Below are positions 39,559-62,432 of a stretch of DNA of 64,000 nt, in pieces. Position 1 is the first letter of the stretch. Each line of letters starts with the position of its first letter. Location: positions 930,001 to 994,000 of the forward strand of contig NZ_JBAMDA010000001.1 in NCBI RefSeq assembly GCF_036964665.1, given 5' to 3'. The position numbers were made by a program, and so were the translations under genes. The notes below the pieces were generated by a model. It was not told where the DNA came from. It did not search any database and was given only the letters and a program-made list of their open reading frames with translations. This DNA comes from Nitrobacter sp. NHB1 (GTDB lineage Bacteria; Pseudomonadota; Alphaproteobacteria; Rhizobiales; Xanthobacteraceae).

Positions 39559-39572
39559 TGGCGGAAGGGGTG
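39559..39572. other. Candidate left attachment site (attL) of the satellite
   Basis: TGGCGGAAGGGGTG is an exact 14-base copy of 50451-50464, which is the CCA end plus acceptor 3' strand of tRNA-Ser(UGA), in the same orientation. Tyrosine integrases next to a tRNA normally leave such a copy of the tRNA 3' end at the far end. Fourteen bases is short, and a 16/17 copy stands at 39014, so the choice is tentative. Confidence 0.55.
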
Positions 39573-40025: not shown

Positions 40026-40232
40026 CTAATTGATTATCGCGACGTTGTTCGCGCGCAGCCGCCCGTCAGGGCCGCGACCGACGTCATATTCCACGCGGTC
40101 CTGCGGAGATGGATAGCGAAGCTTGTCCGCCAACCCATGCACATGCAGGAAAATATCCTGACTGCCGTCATCCGGACCAATAAATCCGTAGCCCTTGGAA
40201 TCGAGAAAAAACTTCACAACGCCGGTTGCCAT
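40026..40232 (-). CDS. Phage-borne cold-shock-domain protein
   Basis: A 68-residue CspA-type RNA/ssDNA-binding protein. The RNP1 motif is KGYGFIGPDDGS (residues ~12-23) and RNP2 is DIFLHVHGL. The rest (VEYDVGRGPDGRLRANNVAI) fits the family, although several core aromatic residues differ from host CspA. Its ATG overlaps the portal stop (ATGA), and GGGAGG inside the portal gene supplies a ribosome site, so it is coupled to a head gene. Cold-shock proteins occur in some phages; this tight coupling is unusual. It may protect nascent DNA/RNA or modulate host translation, which is inference. Confidence 0.85.
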   Translation of the reverse strand: MATGVVKFFLDSKGYGFIGPDDGSQDIFLHVHGLADKLRYPSPQDRVEYDVGRGPDGRLRANNVAIIN

Positions 40233-41296
40233 CACTTTGCCTCCCAATCGAGCATTGCCAGCGCGCCCTTTGCGTCGACGCCGCTTTCCTTTGCCATAGC
40301 CAAGCCCTGGACCAGGGTAGCGAACGCTCGCGCCGAACCGCCGCTATCGAATGCCTGTGTCGGCCCCATGGTGTCGATCGTCACCGCACCGCCAAGCTTT
40401 TCGCTGGCTTCCTCGGCGAGCAATTCCGCCAAGGGCTGAAGCGCCCATTGGGCAAGATGCCGCTGGCATTCGCGCACCATCGGCCCCGTGGTGGCGCTGT
40501 TGAACAGGCCGGGCAGAACACCGAAGGCGGCGAGGATTGAATCCCGCGCCGCGTCCAGCGTCTCCTTGGTCATGCTCTTTTCGAGATCGGGCGAAAGATC
40601 ATTCGGCGACCAGTCCTGCATAGGCGTTGGCCCGCCGGCCGCCGTCACCGCGACCGACTCTCTAACAAGGATCCGCCCCCTTTTGCCGATAAAGCTGTTC
40701 GCCAGTGCCGTGTTGTCTTGCTCCGGGTTCTCAGGCATCGGCACGACTTGCGAGCCGAGCGGTGCGTTCTGGAAAACCTCGCTCAAAGCTGTCTCGACCG
40801 CGTGCAAGAGACCAGCGCTTAGCGATGCGGTGCGCAGCGGACTGACGCCCGACCATGGCGCCGCATTGTCGGCGTTGATCCGAACGTGAAGAACTTCGCC
40901 AGCGAGTGCGGTCATGCTGCGACCGCCACCGGATTCGGGGACGCTCAAACGGTACGCTTTAGGCTTGCTCTGATATGTTGACACGTCCCAATCCGACGCC
41001 GGCACCAATTCGTCGCCGTCGATCAGAGCCACGAATTCGCCGCGCAATGCCAGCGACCGCCCAAGCATTGCCATGGTGCGTCGATCGAGCATGTCAGTGC
41101 CATCGACGGCTGCGAGCGCGAAACCGTTCTGCCAGAGCGACACGCAACTCGACACAGTGCCTGTGAGTTCTGCCAAACCGGTGCGGCCCTGAACGTAAGC
41201 CCAGCGAGCCTGCATCACTTCCGCGGTGTACCCAGCGCCGCTACTACGCTTTTCAACTGCGGGTGCGCCACGTCGAAAGAGATCAAGAAATTTCAT
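40232..41296 (-). CDS. Phage portal protein (HK97-like)
   Basis: A 354-residue portal protein that forms the DNA entry ring of the capsid. The start MKFLDLFRRGAPAVEKR is the usual portal N-terminus; the long upstream frame is a shadow of the connector gene. Motifs include VSSCVSLWQNGFALAAVDG, the APWSGVSPLRTASLSAGLL helix region and ILAAFGVLPGLFNSATTGP near the C-terminal crown. The length is a little short compared with HK97 portal (about 420). The connector gene overlaps it by four bases upstream, and a cold-shock gene overlaps downstream. Confidence 0.88.
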   Translation of the reverse strand: MKFLDLFRRGAPAVEKRSSGAGYTAEVMQARWAYVQGRTGLAELTGTVSSCVSLWQNGFALAAVDGTDMLDRRTMAMLGRSLALRGEFVALIDGDELVPASDWDVSTYQSKPKAYRLSVPESGGGRSMTALAGEVLHVRINADNAAPWSGVSPLRTASLSAGLLHAVETALSEVFQNAPLGSQVVPMPENPEQDNTALANSFIGKRGRILVRESVAVTAAGGPTPMQDWSPNDLSPDLEKSMTKETLDAARDSILAAFGVLPGLFNSATTGPMVRECQRHLAQWALQPLAELLAEEASEKLGGAVTIDTMGPTQAFDSGGSARAFATLVQGLAMAKESGVDAKGALAMLDWEAK

Positions 41297-45725: not shown

Positions 45726-46079
45726 TCACTTGCGCGCCTGAATGACCCAACATGTAGATGCTGGATCGAGCGCGACATTGACCACTGTGTACGTGATGCC
45801 ACTGATGACGAGGCGATCAACAGTCGCAGGCGTAAGGTCTAAGCTGCTGCAAACAATGAAGACTTTGCGATCATTCGCTTGAATGAGCGTGCCAGTGAGG
45901 TCTTGCTGGGAGTAGTTGTCCACCCAGCCCTGTGCATCGTGGTCAACCCACGTCACCGTTGGGTTGAACGGATCGTTGTCCGACTCTTGATGCTGAAGCG
46001 TCAGGCCGTAGGGGATGCCAGCGCTATTGAGCGCGGCGGATAGGCGGGTGGCGAGCGTGCCATCGGTCAATATACTCAT
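45726..46079 (-). CDS. Small phage-related protein (117 aa), possible head completion/joining factor
   Basis: 117 residues from the ATG at 46079 (MSILTDGTLATRLSAALNSA). It is beta-rich, with VTWVDHDAQGWVDNYSQQDL and KVFIVCSSLDLTPATVDRLV. The pattern resembles small head-closure or tail-attachment proteins of other phages, which also have an immunoglobulin-like beta core. This is a resemblance, not an identification. It is the first gene of the packaging/head operon, 109 bases before the terminase, and lies beside the repeat array. Confidence 0.55.
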   Translation of the reverse strand: MSILTDGTLATRLSAALNSAGIPYGLTLQHQESDNDPFNPTVTWVDHDAQGWVDNYSQQDLTGTLIQANDRKVFIVCSSLDLTPATVDRLVISGITYTVVNVALDPASTCWVIQARK

Positions 46080-46082
46080 GTA

Positions 46083-46171
46083 ACAAAAGTTTACTACGAT
46101 CACGGACTTTTGTCAACCTATGCCATTGACCCATGGTCTTGGCTATGGCAGCCGCCAGCATTGGTCAATGG
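46083..46171. promoter_or_regulatory. Two inverted repeats before the structural operon
   Basis: ACAAAAGT (46083-46090) and ACTTTTGT (46106-46113) form one 8-base inverted repeat. CCATTGACC (46123-46131) and GGTCAATGG (46163-46171) form a perfect 9-base inverted repeat. They lie in the 241-base gap between the primase-helicase gene and the first head gene, where a late promoter, its operator, or the packaging (cos/pac) site would be expected. Confidence 0.5.
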
Positions 46172-46241
46172 TTCTGATGCGTGGGCGCCGCGCCCAAGCG
46201 GCGTCTATCGCAGGGGGTATAAGGGGGTTGATATATGCGGT

Positions 46242-46319
46242 GATAGACGGGCGATGGACGCCCGATAGACGGGCGATCTGCATGCGATAGACGGAGGGAT
46301 AGACGGGCGATAGACGCCC
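46242..46319. repeat. 11-bp tandem repeats (GATAGACGGGC), likely origin iterons
   Basis: Units start at 46242, 46253, 46264, 46275, 46286, 46298 and 46309. The consensus is GATAGACGGGC: three units are exact, 46253 is GATGGACGCCC and 46309 is GATAGACGCCC, while 46275 is degraded. The spacing is 11, 11, 11, 11, 12, 11, so each unit lies on one helical face. An inverted copy GCGTCTATCG is at 46201. The array lies immediately beyond the stop of the primase-helicase, as expected for an origin recognised by that protein. Confidence 0.75.
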
Positions 46320-46320
46320 A

Positions 46321-48384
46321 TCATCTGGCGACCTCCAAGCGATAACCACCCGATCGGCCGTACGGTGCGTTGACAATTCGCTTGGTGTCGAGAAGGCGTT
46401 TCATCGCCATTTCAAGATCGCTCTTGTTGACGCCTTGCGAACCGCCGTCGCTCTGAAACGTCTTTGGCGCGTATCCTCGCCCCGGAGCTACATGGACGTG
46501 GACGTTCTGGCCCGTGGCTTTCTCAAGCAGTTCGAGAAACACCCGATCAGCCTTTGCTTGCCGCTCCAGCGGATCGCCCGTTACTGCGCGTGCGCGGTCA
46601 GGGACAAAGGCGCCTCGCTGATAGCGCATGGGGATTTCGGTGCCGATCTTCGAATAGTTCGATTTCATCAGCTTCAAGACACGCAGATCGGGATCGCCCA
46701 CTTGTCCCTCGTCCTTCACCCAATCGAAATACATCCGGGAGCGGATGGAGTTATTCCAAGCCGTCGAGCCTGACGTACCCGAACCGCTGTTCAAGCCAGA
46801 AAGTGACGGATGCGCCAGCACCACAACCGCGCATTTGAAGCGCAATGCGATCTTGCGAAGCATGCCGACGAAGGACCGCACTTGCTGGCGAATGACCTCG
46901 TTGCCGCCGTAGATGTCCGCGAGGGTATCCAGAACGACCAGCGATGGCTTTCCAGCCTCGCAGACGTCGACTAGCTCGTCATAGAGCCCCGTGGCATTTA
47001 GAACGCCCTCGCCATTCAGCGAAGCCAGCACGGCATCTGTGTCCGCAAAGCTGGAAGGATACAGACTCGCCATGCGCTCAAGCGAAATGCCATGCTCGCG
47101 CGAGATGGCGGCGAGGCGGATGTGGATTTCGTCCCGACTATCTTCGGCCGTCATGAAGATGGCATTGCCATGCTTGACCGGTCGACCGAACCACGGAACC
47201 GCGGATGCCGCACAAGCCGCCATGTGCAACGCGACCAGCGATTTACCGACGCCACCGTCGCCGTAGATCATCGTAACCTGACCGTTCGGAATCCACTCGC
47301 GAATGAACCAATCGCGCTCCGGAACCGGCAAGCCTGCCAATTCGGCTGCGCTGAACGATCGCTCAACAAAGGCGTTGCCGGGTTCTTCGTAATAGCCATC
47401 ATCTTCGGCAGGCCCGGGTAGGGGAATCGGGCCGGTGTAGGGCTCTAGAGGCGGTTGCGGAGTTGGAGGCGCCCCAATGATGACATCCGCAAACATCTCC
47501 TTGGCGGTTTTGTCCCTCAGCGGCATATCCGTAAATGTCATCGCGTTGTCGAAGCTATTATTTATTGCGCGCTCCCATCCTTCGCTCGACACTCCGCTCT
47601 CGCTGAACGCTTCCGCCAGCGCGTAATAGGCAAACTCGCGACCGATATTACCAATCGCGACATGGGCGCCAACCGCATTGGCAACCTTCAAGATGACGGG
47701 ATGCGAGCCGGTGCCGTCCAGCGCCCGAAGCTCCGCGCACGCCTCCGCAAGCACCGTTTCAGCGCGCCCCCGCGGAAGTGGCGCATGGTCAGCCGGCGCC
47801 AAGCGTGACAGGTCTACCTCGCCCTTGGGGGGCGCTGTCGTCAATGCGGGGCGCAGCACATTGCCGTCGTAAATATCCTCAACGCCAGTCGAGACGTAAG
47901 GCCCAGGCGTCTTTCCGGCGATGTTGCGGGGGTTTGTGAAATAACTTGGCGGGCACACAGCGTTAGCGTTGCCAACCAGGAGATCGCCCCATCCTGTCTG
48001 CCCTTTGCCCTGCTTTTGAAATGTCGCCGAGTCGGGAAGTCGGAAATATGTATGAAAGCCACCGGAGGGGCTGGTCATGTGCGGGGGCGGTGGCTCAAAT
48101 TCGAGGTTGTTGCACCATTCCTTGAAGACTGTCTCGCAGCCCCGTTCGACATCGCAAACCGCGATCCCGGATGCGCCGGGGTTAATGCCGATGTTGTAGC
48201 CGTCGGCGACCCACGTCTCCCATCGCAGGGTGTCCTTCGTGTGTCGGAGTTGCCACTCCTTGCCGATCGGGGCTTTATCGCCCTCATGGACTTGATGCAG
48301 AGCGAAGCCGTGACGTTCGTAAAAGTCGAAAAAGCTCGAAGTTTTAGATGACATACGTTTGATTGCTTTCTTTGATTGATGCAT
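46321..48384 (-). CDS. Primase-polymerase/RepA-like helicase fusion (satellite replication protein)
   Basis: 687 residues. The N-terminal part (about 15-190) is a bifunctional primase/polymerase-like domain (YNIGINPGASGIAVCDVERG, then TSPSGGFHTYFRLPD). The second half is an AAA/RecA-type hexameric helicase: Walker A YGDGGVGKSLVALHMA (about 372-387), Walker B PSLVVLDTLADIYGG, and VVVLAHPSLSG as in RepA. The C-terminal end has a winged-helix-like region (GVNKSDLEMAMKRLLDTKRI) for origin binding. The ATG at 48384 has GGGAG eight bases upstream. It is the satellite's autonomous replication protein. Confidence 0.85.
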   Translation of the reverse strand: MHQSKKAIKRMSSKTSSFFDFYERHGFALHQVHEGDKAPIGKEWQLRHTKDTLRWETWVADGYNIGINPGASGIAVCDVERGCETVFKEWCNNLEFEPPPPHMTSPSGGFHTYFRLPDSATFQKQGKGQTGWGDLLVGNANAVCPPSYFTNPRNIAGKTPGPYVSTGVEDIYDGNVLRPALTTAPPKGEVDLSRLAPADHAPLPRGRAETVLAEACAELRALDGTGSHPVILKVANAVGAHVAIGNIGREFAYYALAEAFSESGVSSEGWERAINNSFDNAMTFTDMPLRDKTAKEMFADVIIGAPPTPQPPLEPYTGPIPLPGPAEDDGYYEEPGNAFVERSFSAAELAGLPVPERDWFIREWIPNGQVTMIYGDGGVGKSLVALHMAACAASAVPWFGRPVKHGNAIFMTAEDSRDEIHIRLAAISREHGISLERMASLYPSSFADTDAVLASLNGEGVLNATGLYDELVDVCEAGKPSLVVLDTLADIYGGNEVIRQQVRSFVGMLRKIALRFKCAVVVLAHPSLSGLNSGSGTSGSTAWNNSIRSRMYFDWVKDEGQVGDPDLRVLKLMKSNYSKIGTEIPMRYQRGAFVPDRARAVTGDPLERQAKADRVFLELLEKATGQNVHVHVAPGRGYAPKTFQSDGGSQGVNKSDLEMAMKRLLDTKRIVNAPYGRSGGYRLEVAR

Positions 48385-50450: not shown

Positions 50451-50540
50451 TGGCGGAAGGGGTGGGATTCGAACCCACGGTGGGCTTGCACCCACGCCGG
50501 TTTTCAAGACCGGTGCCTTAAACCACTCGGCCACCCTTCC
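50451..50540 (-). tRNA. tRNA-Ser (UGA), satellite attachment site
   Basis: A 90-base type-II tRNA on the minus strand. The acceptor GGAAGGG is paired with CCCTTCC, the discriminator is G, and CCA is encoded at 50453-50451. The anticodon loop CTTGAAA gives UGA. A long variable arm (GTGGGTGCAAGCCCAC) marks serine. The last 14 bases recur at 39559, so the gene is the probable attachment target and stays intact. Confidence 0.95.
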
Positions 50541-55675: not shown

Positions 55676-57664
55676 GTGGTGGCTCCCGCTAAGAAGAAAC
55701 CGGCCAAGAAGTCCCGCGCAGGCAAGGCGCGCAAATCGCGCCACGCCGCCACCGATCGCGCCTCTATCGTGAAGAAGCGCAGCAAGAAGGCGAGCCCTCG
55801 AAAGACCGGCAAACGCACGAAAAAGACGAGCACGAAGACGACGACAAAAGCGCGCGCCCCGAAGAAGACCAAAAAGACAGCAAAAGCGCGCGTACCGAAG
55901 AAAGTCAAAAAGACAGCAAAGAAGGCGGCGAAGCGAGCGGCCAAAAAACGGCCAGCGACAAAAAAAATTCCGAAAAAAGCGGCGACGAAAAAGGTTACTG
56001 CGAAAAAGGCTGCGCCGAAGCGACCCGCAGCAAAGCGTCCGGCGAAGTCCGCAAAGCCCGCGACGTCACGTCGGCCCGGCACGACCGCGCCGCCGACGCC
56101 TTCGAGCGTCGCGCCGGCCCGCACCAACACTTTCTATATCACCACAGCGATCGTTTATCCGAACGGCGCGCCGCATATCGGGCACGCCTATGAGGCGATT
56201 GCCACCGATGCGCTGGCGCGCTTCCAGAGACTCGACGGCAAGGACGTGTTCTTCCTGACCGGCACCGACGAGCATGGACAGAAGATGGTTCAGACCGCGC
56301 AGCGGGAAAACATATCCGCGCTTGAACTCGCTACACGAAATGCCGAACTGCTGCGGAAGCTCGACGAGACGCTGAATATTTCGTTCGATCGGTTCATTCG
56401 CACCTCGGAACCCGCGCATCACCATTCGGTCCAGGAAATCTGGAAACGCATGGCGGCGAATGGCGACATCTACCTGTCGAGTTACGCCGGCTGGTATTCG
56501 GTGCGCGACGAAGCCTATTACGCGGAGGACGAGACGGTCGTTGGTGAGGACAACGTGCGGCGGGGCCCGCAGGGCACGCCGGTCGAGTGGGTCGAGGAGA
56601 AGAGCTATTTCTTCAAACTGTCGGCCTATCAGGACAGGCTGCTCGCGCTGTACGACAAGCAGCCCGATTTCATCGGACCGGATTCCCGCCGCAATGAAGT
56701 CATCAGCTTCGTAAAGGGCGGCCTGAAGGATCTGTCGATCTCGCGCACCACCTTCGACTGGGGCGTCAAGGTGCCCGATGATCCCGAGCACGTCATGTAC
56801 GTCTGGGTCGACGCGCTGACCAACTACATTACCGGTGTCGGCTTTCCCGACGATAACGACAGGAACTGGCACTACTGGCCGGCCGACGTCCACATCATCG
56901 GCAAGGACATCATCCGCTTCCACGCGGTGTATTGGCCTGCCTTCCTGATGTCGGCGGGCATCCCGTTGCAGAAGCGGGTCTATGCCCACGGCTTCCTGTT
57001 CAATCGCGGTGAGAAGATGTCGAAGTCGGTCGGCAATGTCGTCGATCCTTTCAACCTCGCCGCGCAATACGGCGTCGATCAGGTACGCTACTTCTTTCTG
57101 CGCGAGGTGCCGTTCGGGCAGGACGGCAGCTACAACCACGAGGCGATCGTGGCGCGCATCAACGCCGACCTCGCCAACGACTTCGGCAATCTTGCACAGC
57201 GCTCGCTGTCGATGATCGCGAAGCAGCATGACGGCGTTCTGCCGGAGCCAGACGATTTCAGCGACAACGACAAAGCCATCCTCGCGCAGGCCGACGGCAT
57301 GATTGCGATCGCGCGCGACGCGATGAATACGCAGCAGATTCACCAGGCGCTCAATGCGGTCTGGGCCGTCGTCGCCGAAGCCAACCGCTATTTCGCCGGC
57401 GAAGCGCCATGGGTACTGGCGAAGACCGATCCGGCGCGGCAGAAGACGGTGCTGTATGTCACGGCCGAGGTGGTGCGCCAGATCGCGATCCTGGCGCAGC
57501 CCGCGATGCCCGCGTCATGCGCGACGATGCTCGACCTCCTCGGCATTCCCGCCTCTGAGCGAAATTTTGCGATGCTTGGCGGTCATGTCCGCATCAAGCC
57601 GGGCACGACGTTGCCAGCGTCGGTCCCCGTATTCCCGCGCTATGTCGAACCGTCCGTGGCCTGA
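55676..57664 (+). CDS. metG: Methionyl-tRNA synthetase with Lys/Ala-rich N-terminal extension
   Basis: 662 residues. The catalytic synthetase starts at about residue 151 ([14 protein letters not shown]): HIGH motif [13 protein letters not shown] motif [10 protein letters not shown] near residue 450, and the anticodon-binding helical domain after that. Residues 1-150 are almost only Lys, Arg, Ala, Pro and Thr ([16 protein letters not shown]), as in histone H1-like proteins. The nearest in-frame starts are GTG at 55676, 55679 and 55769; none lies between 55772 and the catalytic part, so the tail has to be made. The core (about 512 residues) has the usual length. It belongs to the tmk-holB-metG-tatD cluster. 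Confidence 0.92.
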
Positions 57665-61502: not shown

Positions 61503-62432
61503 TTAGGCTTCCGTTTCGCAATTAGCTGATTGATAGGTCAACCGCTTACCGGCGAACCCCTTAAGGGCCAGATCGGCACGCTGCTCATCGTTGATGCCAA
61601 GCTTGGCGCGGGTGTTCTGGCGGAAATCGAATTCTGCCAGATAGCGGTCCAGATGCTTCTTATCGACGTGCTGATAGATACCGACAAGGCCGCGCTTCAA
61701 GACCGAAAAGAAGCCCTCCAGCGTGTTCGTATACACGTCGTCGCGCTTCCACTCGAACTTGGAGTGATCGACCATTTCATGGCTGGCAACCGGCGGGTAT
61801 TTGTAGCGCGCGGCGGTGTCAGTCATCAGGCGGCTTTCGTGATGCACGTTCTGCCGAATGACGGACATTGCCATGCGATGATCCAGAAACGTCGAACGGA
61901 CATCGCCGCCCCGTTCTACAAGGCTCATGACGACCGGATTATGGGTCTTGCGGCGGAAGTCTGCCGGACGCTTGGTCTTGCGGGACCGAGCCAATTCGGT
62001 TTCGTCGGCTTCGACGATCTTACCGGCACCTCCCAATGGGCCAGCGGAAGGCAGCGGAGCCATTCCGTGGCGGATGCGGTGACCAAGGTGCCAAGCGGTC
62101 TTCATGCCGCAGCCAAGGGTCCGCTGAAGCTGGCGGGTGGAAATGCCTTTCTTGCTGCTGCAAAGCAAGTGGATTGCCTGAAGCCACAGCCGTAGGGGAA
62201 GGTGGCTGTCCTCGAAAATGGTGCCGATCCGCACGGTAAACGGCTTGCGGCAGGCGTAGCACTTGCGCAGCCCAACGCGAGTGGTCTTGCCTTGAAGGCG
62301 GCCAATCTTGGCCTGATCCGCGTTCTCACAATGAGGGCAAACGGGACCGTTCGGCCAAAGCTCCGCTTCCACGTAAGCGAAGGCCGCTACCTCATTGTGA
62401 AACCTAGCATCGGACAGAACAGACTTGGCCAT
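61503..62432 (-). CDS. IS1595-family transposase
   Basis: A 309-residue DDE transposase of the ISXO2/IS1595 family. An N-terminal zinc ribbon (CPHCENADQAKIG, then KCYACRKPFTVRIGTIFEDS) is followed by the DDE-type catalytic domain, with IVEADETELARSRK (first Asp), MTDTAARYKYPP (second) and the later EGFFSVLKRGLVGIYQHVDK (third acidic residue). The frame is intact. I could not find terminal inverted repeats around it with confidence, so the ends of the insertion sequence are not marked. Confidence 0.88.
   Translation of the reverse strand: MAKSVLSDARFHNEVAAFAYVEAELWPNGPVCPHCENADQAKIGRLQGKTTRVGLRKCYACRKPFTVRIGTIFEDSHLPLRLWLQAIHLLCSSKKGISTRQLQRTLGCGMKTAWHLGHRIRHGMAPLPSAGPLGGAGKIVEADETELARSRKTKRPADFRRKTHNPVVMSLVERGGDVRSTFLDHRMAMSVIRQNVHHESRLMTDTAARYKYPPVASHEMVDHSKFEWKRDDVYTNTLEGFFSVLKRGLVGIYQHVDKKHLDRYLAEFDFRQNTRAKLGINDEQRADLALKGFAGKRLTYQSANCETEA

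Follow-up and report, generated by a model that had tools for sequence, protein, structure and literature searches.

The repeats directly behind the primase-helicase gene (rep) of an integrated element in Nitrobacter sp. NHB1 are very probably the replication origin of that element. We place this origin, with high though not complete confidence, at positions 46187-46319 of the window (the whole 64,000-nucleotide stretch of DNA that was analyzed) and propose that the winged helix of Rep binds the iterons, the box beside them opens, the helicase is loaded, and the Prim-Pol domain primes synthesis. The origin appears to belong to a gene-plus-origin cassette that many phages and phage satellites share, and the repeat of this cassette changes with the DNA-binding tail of the helicase. 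The features of the region and of the element are collected in Table 1.

Table 1. Features of the candidate origin, the element around it, and the comparable region of phage WO
Feature	Position	Strand	Remark
Distal att repeat TGGCGGAAGGGGTG	39559..39572	.	
Promoter for head/packaging genes	46088..46116	-	sigma-70-like, TTGACA-17-TAAACT; downstream of the putative origin, no overlap
GC-rich potential hairpin GCCGCGCCCAAGCGGC	46187..46202	.	low confidence as a functional part
Single inverted iteron	46200..46211	+	far side of the box
C-rich, TATA-centered box CCCCCTTATACCCCC (rep strand)	46213..46227	-	kept behind rep in 45/91 relatives
Iteron array	46242..46319	-	11-bp positions; of the seven units, six are good and one (46275-46285) is degenerate
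rep	46321..48384	-	687 aa; Prim-Pol primase joined to an AAA_25/RSF1010 RepA-type helicase, with a winged helix at the C terminus
Winged-helix coding segment of rep	46324..46572	-	residues 605-687; proposed iteron reader
att repeat, 3' end of tRNA-Ser(TGA)	50451..50464	.	proximal element end
Phage WO repeats	L130 3665-3890		KX522565.1, about 62144-62369

Anatomy of the repeat region

An earlier note on this DNA described seven tandem units at steps of 11, 11, 11, 11, 12, and 11 bases and an inverted unit at 46201, and both descriptions hold with small refinements. Units of the GATAGACGGGC type start on the plus strand at 46242, 46253, 46264, 46275, 46286, 46298, and 46309, at precisely those steps; six are good, and the one at 46275, GATCTGCATGC, is degenerate, with 6 of 11 bases matching. 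Exact GATAGACG is found in five of the seven units and with one mismatch in the unit at 46253, and the core of the good units on the rep strand reads CGTCTATC. The array scores 78 in Tandem Repeats Finder. Counting the inverted copy, GATAGACG/CGTCTATC occurs six times within 120 bp and just three further times in the 64-kb window, both strands counted; no 8-mer had more than three copies in any of 30 windows of 64 kb simulated with matching dinucleotide composition. With the array reaching up to 46319 and the rep stop codon at 46321-46323, the array, read in the direction of rep, begins 1 bp past the stop and does lie directly behind the gene, as had been reported. A position directly 3' of the replication initiator gene is the one expected of a PICI-type origin, and the arrays of relatives occupy it likewise.

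The inverted unit (46200-46211) is a 12-bp perfect reverse complement of 46307-46318. Between it and the array lies the C-rich, TATA-centered box, which is absent from the earlier note. The 57 nucleotides surrounding the GC-rich hairpin fold with a z score of -2.0; as a third conserved module the hairpin was suggestive among relatives and weak in the window, and we set it aside. Hairpins formed by pairs of units were likewise rejected as a general feature, as they rest on the GGG/CCC linkers of the Nitrobacter element. An inverted repeat, ACAAAAGT...ACTTTTGT (46077-46116, minus strand), coincides in part with the late promoter and is likely an operator.

The spacing of the units had been taken to place all of them on one face of the helix. 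Spacing of the 11-bp type is indeed present, but the mean step is 67/6 = 11.17 bp and the DNA helical repeat is ~10.5 bp per turn, so the iterons are not strictly on one face: each is rotated by ~23 degrees relative to the last, a drift of ~137 degrees across the whole array. We also considered strict helical phasing of the longer gaps between iterons in relatives and dropped it, as a Rayleigh test on 106 such gaps found no sharp phase maximum at 10.5 to 11 bp. The 11-bp step may therefore simply be one binding footprint.

Conservation behind rep in relatives

To collect relatives, whole genomes from the family, the order, and the class were searched, and viral contigs were scanned with aligned C-terminal halves of Rep. 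Full-length Rep as a lone query found no relatives in genome or viral contigs; the C-terminal-half alignment did retrieve them from viral contigs. The end of rep could be read in 111 of the resulting loci, and 91 of these are non-redundant at 80% identity. Tandem periodicity was significant within 160 bp past the rep stop in 71 of the 111 loci, compared with 3/111 inside rep and 4/109 at +500. The expectation that related satellites carry such repeats thus stands for the larger part: a well-defined array with a modal spacing of 11 bp follows rep in 70 of the 91 non-redundant loci, and about a quarter of the relatives are without one. The units themselves differ (TTCCAAC, TTCGCAC, TTCATCTC, GTGCAAC, CCTGCTATC, and others), but the plan recurs 3' of the rep stop whichever genes come next. 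Two loci, L003 and L062, have the array within the rep reading frame, and there the repeats are translated as a Pro/Thr-rich tail.

A box of the CCCCC(n)TATACCCCC type follows the array on the rep strand in 45/91 loci, whereas each control set of about 90 windows gave 0 to 1 occurrences and the opposite strand gave 2/91. In 27 of these 45 loci the locus's own unit recurs in inverted orientation no more than 45 bp past the box (one mismatch allowed; 7.8 expected from the units of other loci), and on this basis the plan of the region is direct units, then the box, then an inverted unit. A palindromic box replaces the C-box in 14 further loci, although this pattern is less specific, and 32/91 loci have neither form. 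Sites resembling those of IHF were seen in 11/91 array regions (for example, in L007, L061, L063, L082, and L088) and in 0 to 3 control windows, and a recurrent TTGATTTCATT motif lies between units in nine loci; either could be a bending site.

The identity of the neighboring genes bears on what else the repeats might be. TerL was detected near rep in 24 loci, capsid in 18, and portal in 15, compared with rep itself in 128, and these packaging-gene counts are lower bounds, many loci being short. Because packaging genes adjoin rep in only about two dozen loci, the array tracks rep rather than its neighbors, which disfavors both a late-gene operator and a packaging site. An operator array through which Rep or another repressor controls the late (capsid and packaging) promoter, or rep, in place of a replication start is the stronger of these two readings and is still improbable. 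There is a good late-gene promoter ~125 bp beyond the array, and a double role is conceivable, autoregulation being frequent among replication initiators. Against it, the array persists though quite different genes come after rep, it lies 3' of rep and away from the rep promoter without overlapping the late promoter, and units, box, and inverted unit together follow the layout of PICI-like origins. That the repeats are a cos or pac start for the satellite terminase is very improbable: TerL and a head-closure gene do come after the region in this element, but such a TerL is detectable beside rep in just 24/128 loci, and the unit varies with the Rep tail. Least credible are functionless chance or slippage repeats or the remnant of a terminator, for although slippage can give rise to short tandem repeats and the GGGC/GCCC linkers form hairpins (z -3.5), the 8-mer count is far above that of simulated sequence, no terminator-like site was found, and dozens of distant relatives have arrays in the same location with differing units, a comparison that already contradicts this reading.

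Rep and its covariation with the repeat unit

Rep combines an N-terminal Prim-Pol domain with an AAA_25 helicase. Among relatives of solved structure, RSF1010 RepA comes closest to the helicase and pRN1 ORF904 to the primase. The best sequence match of the helicase is 1g8y (E 2.7e-7), and its best fold matches are 1g8y, 1nlf, and 1olo, with RSF1010 RepA first in the fold search. An AlphaFold model of the C-terminal half (mean pLDDT 92) ends in three helices and a beta hairpin, and the last 90 residues modeled alone again took a winged-helix arrangement. A fold search with this domain returned the winged-helix fold, with many rows tied near Z 7 to 8.7; it found no close family, and Foldseek gave no match below E 0.001.

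Binding of the unit by the winged helix would lead one to expect covariation between them. Similarity of units correlated with winged-helix identity when helicase identity was held constant (partial r 0.353; 0 of 2,000 permutations), and this link was much stronger than the reverse one, between unit and helicase identity with the winged helix held constant (partial r 0.128; p 0.03). Along Rep, the strongest covarying stretch was the wing and the second was the recognition helix. The unit was also predicted better from the neighbor nearest in winged helix than from the one nearest in helicase; leaving out close relatives reduced the margin (p 0.036 for helicase identity below 0.45). Common ancestry inflates this covariation, and the controls lessen the effect without removing it. 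In the sorted table, the wing SKQRQRL goes with TTCCACC and SRRYxRL with TTCGnAC, and GRPSRP is mostly paired with GTGCA-like units. In a sister element from the same genus (L118/L008), the structural genes are 55 to 81% identical to those of the present element, but the Rep C terminus and the repeats both differ, which fits exchange of Rep tail and origin as one cassette. We conclude from these comparisons that the unit is probably read by the winged helix of the element's own Rep; specific binding of an initiator to direct repeats, as predicted for an iteron origin, is in this way supported indirectly.

The element

The element is 10.9 kb long, lies at a tRNA-Ser gene, and is bounded by 14-bp repeats at 39559 and 50451. 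Besides rep it carries genes for an integrase, a possible excisionase, a head-closure protein, TerL, HNH, capsid, protease, and portal, and a gene for an unnamed protein stands before portal, in the adaptor position. Searches with Pfam and PHROGs found no convincing tail gene and recognized no TerS, although a divergent TerS may be missed by them. The label of satellite given in the earlier note agrees with these att repeats and with capsid, portal, protease, and TerL genes unaccompanied by a recognized tail gene, and the gene makeup indicates a capsid-forming satellite. Its block of genes is also present in about 15 relatives. A gene for a cold-shock-domain protein (40026-40247, minus strand) lies inside the element beside portal, and a similar one is found in the sister element L118. 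Also in the window is an apparent methionyl-tRNA synthetase gene (55676-57664, plus strand; identified by sequence) with a long Lys/Ala-rich, histone H1-like N-terminal extension, in which there are 15-bp and 36-bp tandem repeats.

Discussion

The earlier proposal that these repeats are the origin of a satellite gains support from the arrays behind rep in relatives, from the box and inverted unit, and from the covariation of the unit with the Rep tail. In the mechanism that we propose, the element would first be excised, and Rep made from the adjoining gene would then use the winged helix at its C terminus to bind the 11-bp iterons, reading the unit with the recognition helix and the wing. Rep would be gathered around the C-rich, TATA-centered box by the direct units on one side and the single inverted unit on the other, the DNA would open there, and the RepA-type helicase ring would load. 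The Prim-Pol domain would lay down the first primers, and the satellite could multiply without the chromosomal initiator. Points against an origin are the relatives that have no well-defined array or neither form of box, and the composition of the box in this element, which is GC rich around TATA and is not a long AT-rich melting region.

Parts of this arrangement have counterparts in known systems. The oriV of the IncQ plasmid RSF1010 likewise combines a hexameric RepA-type helicase, the best solved match of the Rep helicase, with a dedicated primase and an iteron origin, but its iteron unit is ~20 bp rather than 11 bp. RSF1010 also divides the work among three separate proteins (RepA, RepB', and RepC) and has ssi hairpins (PMC4234260), whereas there is no separate RepB' primase or RepC here, the Prim-Pol domain, helicase, and putative iteron-reading winged helix being fused in a single Rep. 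ORF904 of the Sulfolobus plasmid pRN1 is a similar fusion of Prim-Pol, helicase, and C-terminal winged helix, with an essential site directly 3' of its gene, but its helicase is of the SF3 type and the site is a 100-bp stem-loop with no iterons (PMC4234260); Rep shares the Prim-Pol domain and departs from the pRN1 type in its AAA_25/RepA helicase and iteron-based site. The alpha protein of phage P4, with its crr, shows that one satellite protein can be primase, helicase, and origin-recognition factor together, although its primase is of the Toprim type and its origin is different (PMC6092414, PMC4234260).

The closest likeness is to the PICIs and SaPIs, small integrated islands in which a primase and Rep, fused or not, are followed by an origin with iterons flanking a presumed melting segment (PMC6092414). 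PICI origins lie immediately 3' of rep, and a Pri-Rep-ori unit was shown to work, with iterons flanking an AT-rich segment; the principle of an origin behind rep is therefore already known (PMC6092414). The present cassette differs from that of the PICIs in its RepA/AAA_25 helicase, in a GC-rich box around TATA where PICIs have an AT-rich segment, in having that box between a direct array and, usually, a single inverted unit, in its occurrence also in larger phage contigs, and in the link between wing and unit in this Rep family. The Nitrobacter element is small and integrated, carries capsid, protease, portal, connector, HNH, and TerL genes of its own, and has no recognized tail genes; in this it matches the capsid-forming PICIs (PMC10690885, PMC10803314). 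Unlike these it has no recognized TerS and has an alphaproteobacterial host; the hosts listed for cf-PICIs are mainly Enterobacteriaceae, Morganellaceae, Pasteurella, and Gram-positive bacteria (PMC10803314).

The same plan extends to the more distant Reps of named phages. Idiomarinaceae phage 1N2-2 has CGGTACA units around ACACACCTATATAGGTGTGT, and an environmental myovirus has GGGACA units around CACACCTATAGGGTGTG behind its Rep; Rhodoferax phage P26218 has no such array behind Rep. In Wolbachia phage WO, AAG(A/T)TGGCA repeats of either orientation surround TCCTCCTATATAGAGGG immediately after RepA, and we regard this region as a candidate replication origin from its layout. The text available to us of the phage WO genome paper treats the origin of the chromosome and describes no phage origin. 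The C-box sequence was not found in a replication context in the open-license literature, a weak indication of novelty. The box, the correlation of unit and wing, the wide spread of the cassette, and the candidate origin of phage WO appear to be undescribed. It seems to us an even question whether these cassettes represent a large undescribed class of replicons in phages and satellites, phage WO included, in which a fused primase-helicase carries, in its wing and recognition helix, a readable code for an 11-bp unit arranged around a conserved C-rich TATA box. If that is true, origins would be predictable from the Rep sequence alone, and the compatibility of coresident elements from the wing.

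The general rule that follows can be tested: genes of this Rep family should be followed by a predictable origin whose repeat is predicted by the Rep tail. It provides candidate origins for many satellites and phages, among them phage WO, and a set of natural protein-DNA pairs with which winged-helix recognition might be decoded. It may also help to address which satellites are able to coexist in one cell and which could replicate with the Rep of another.
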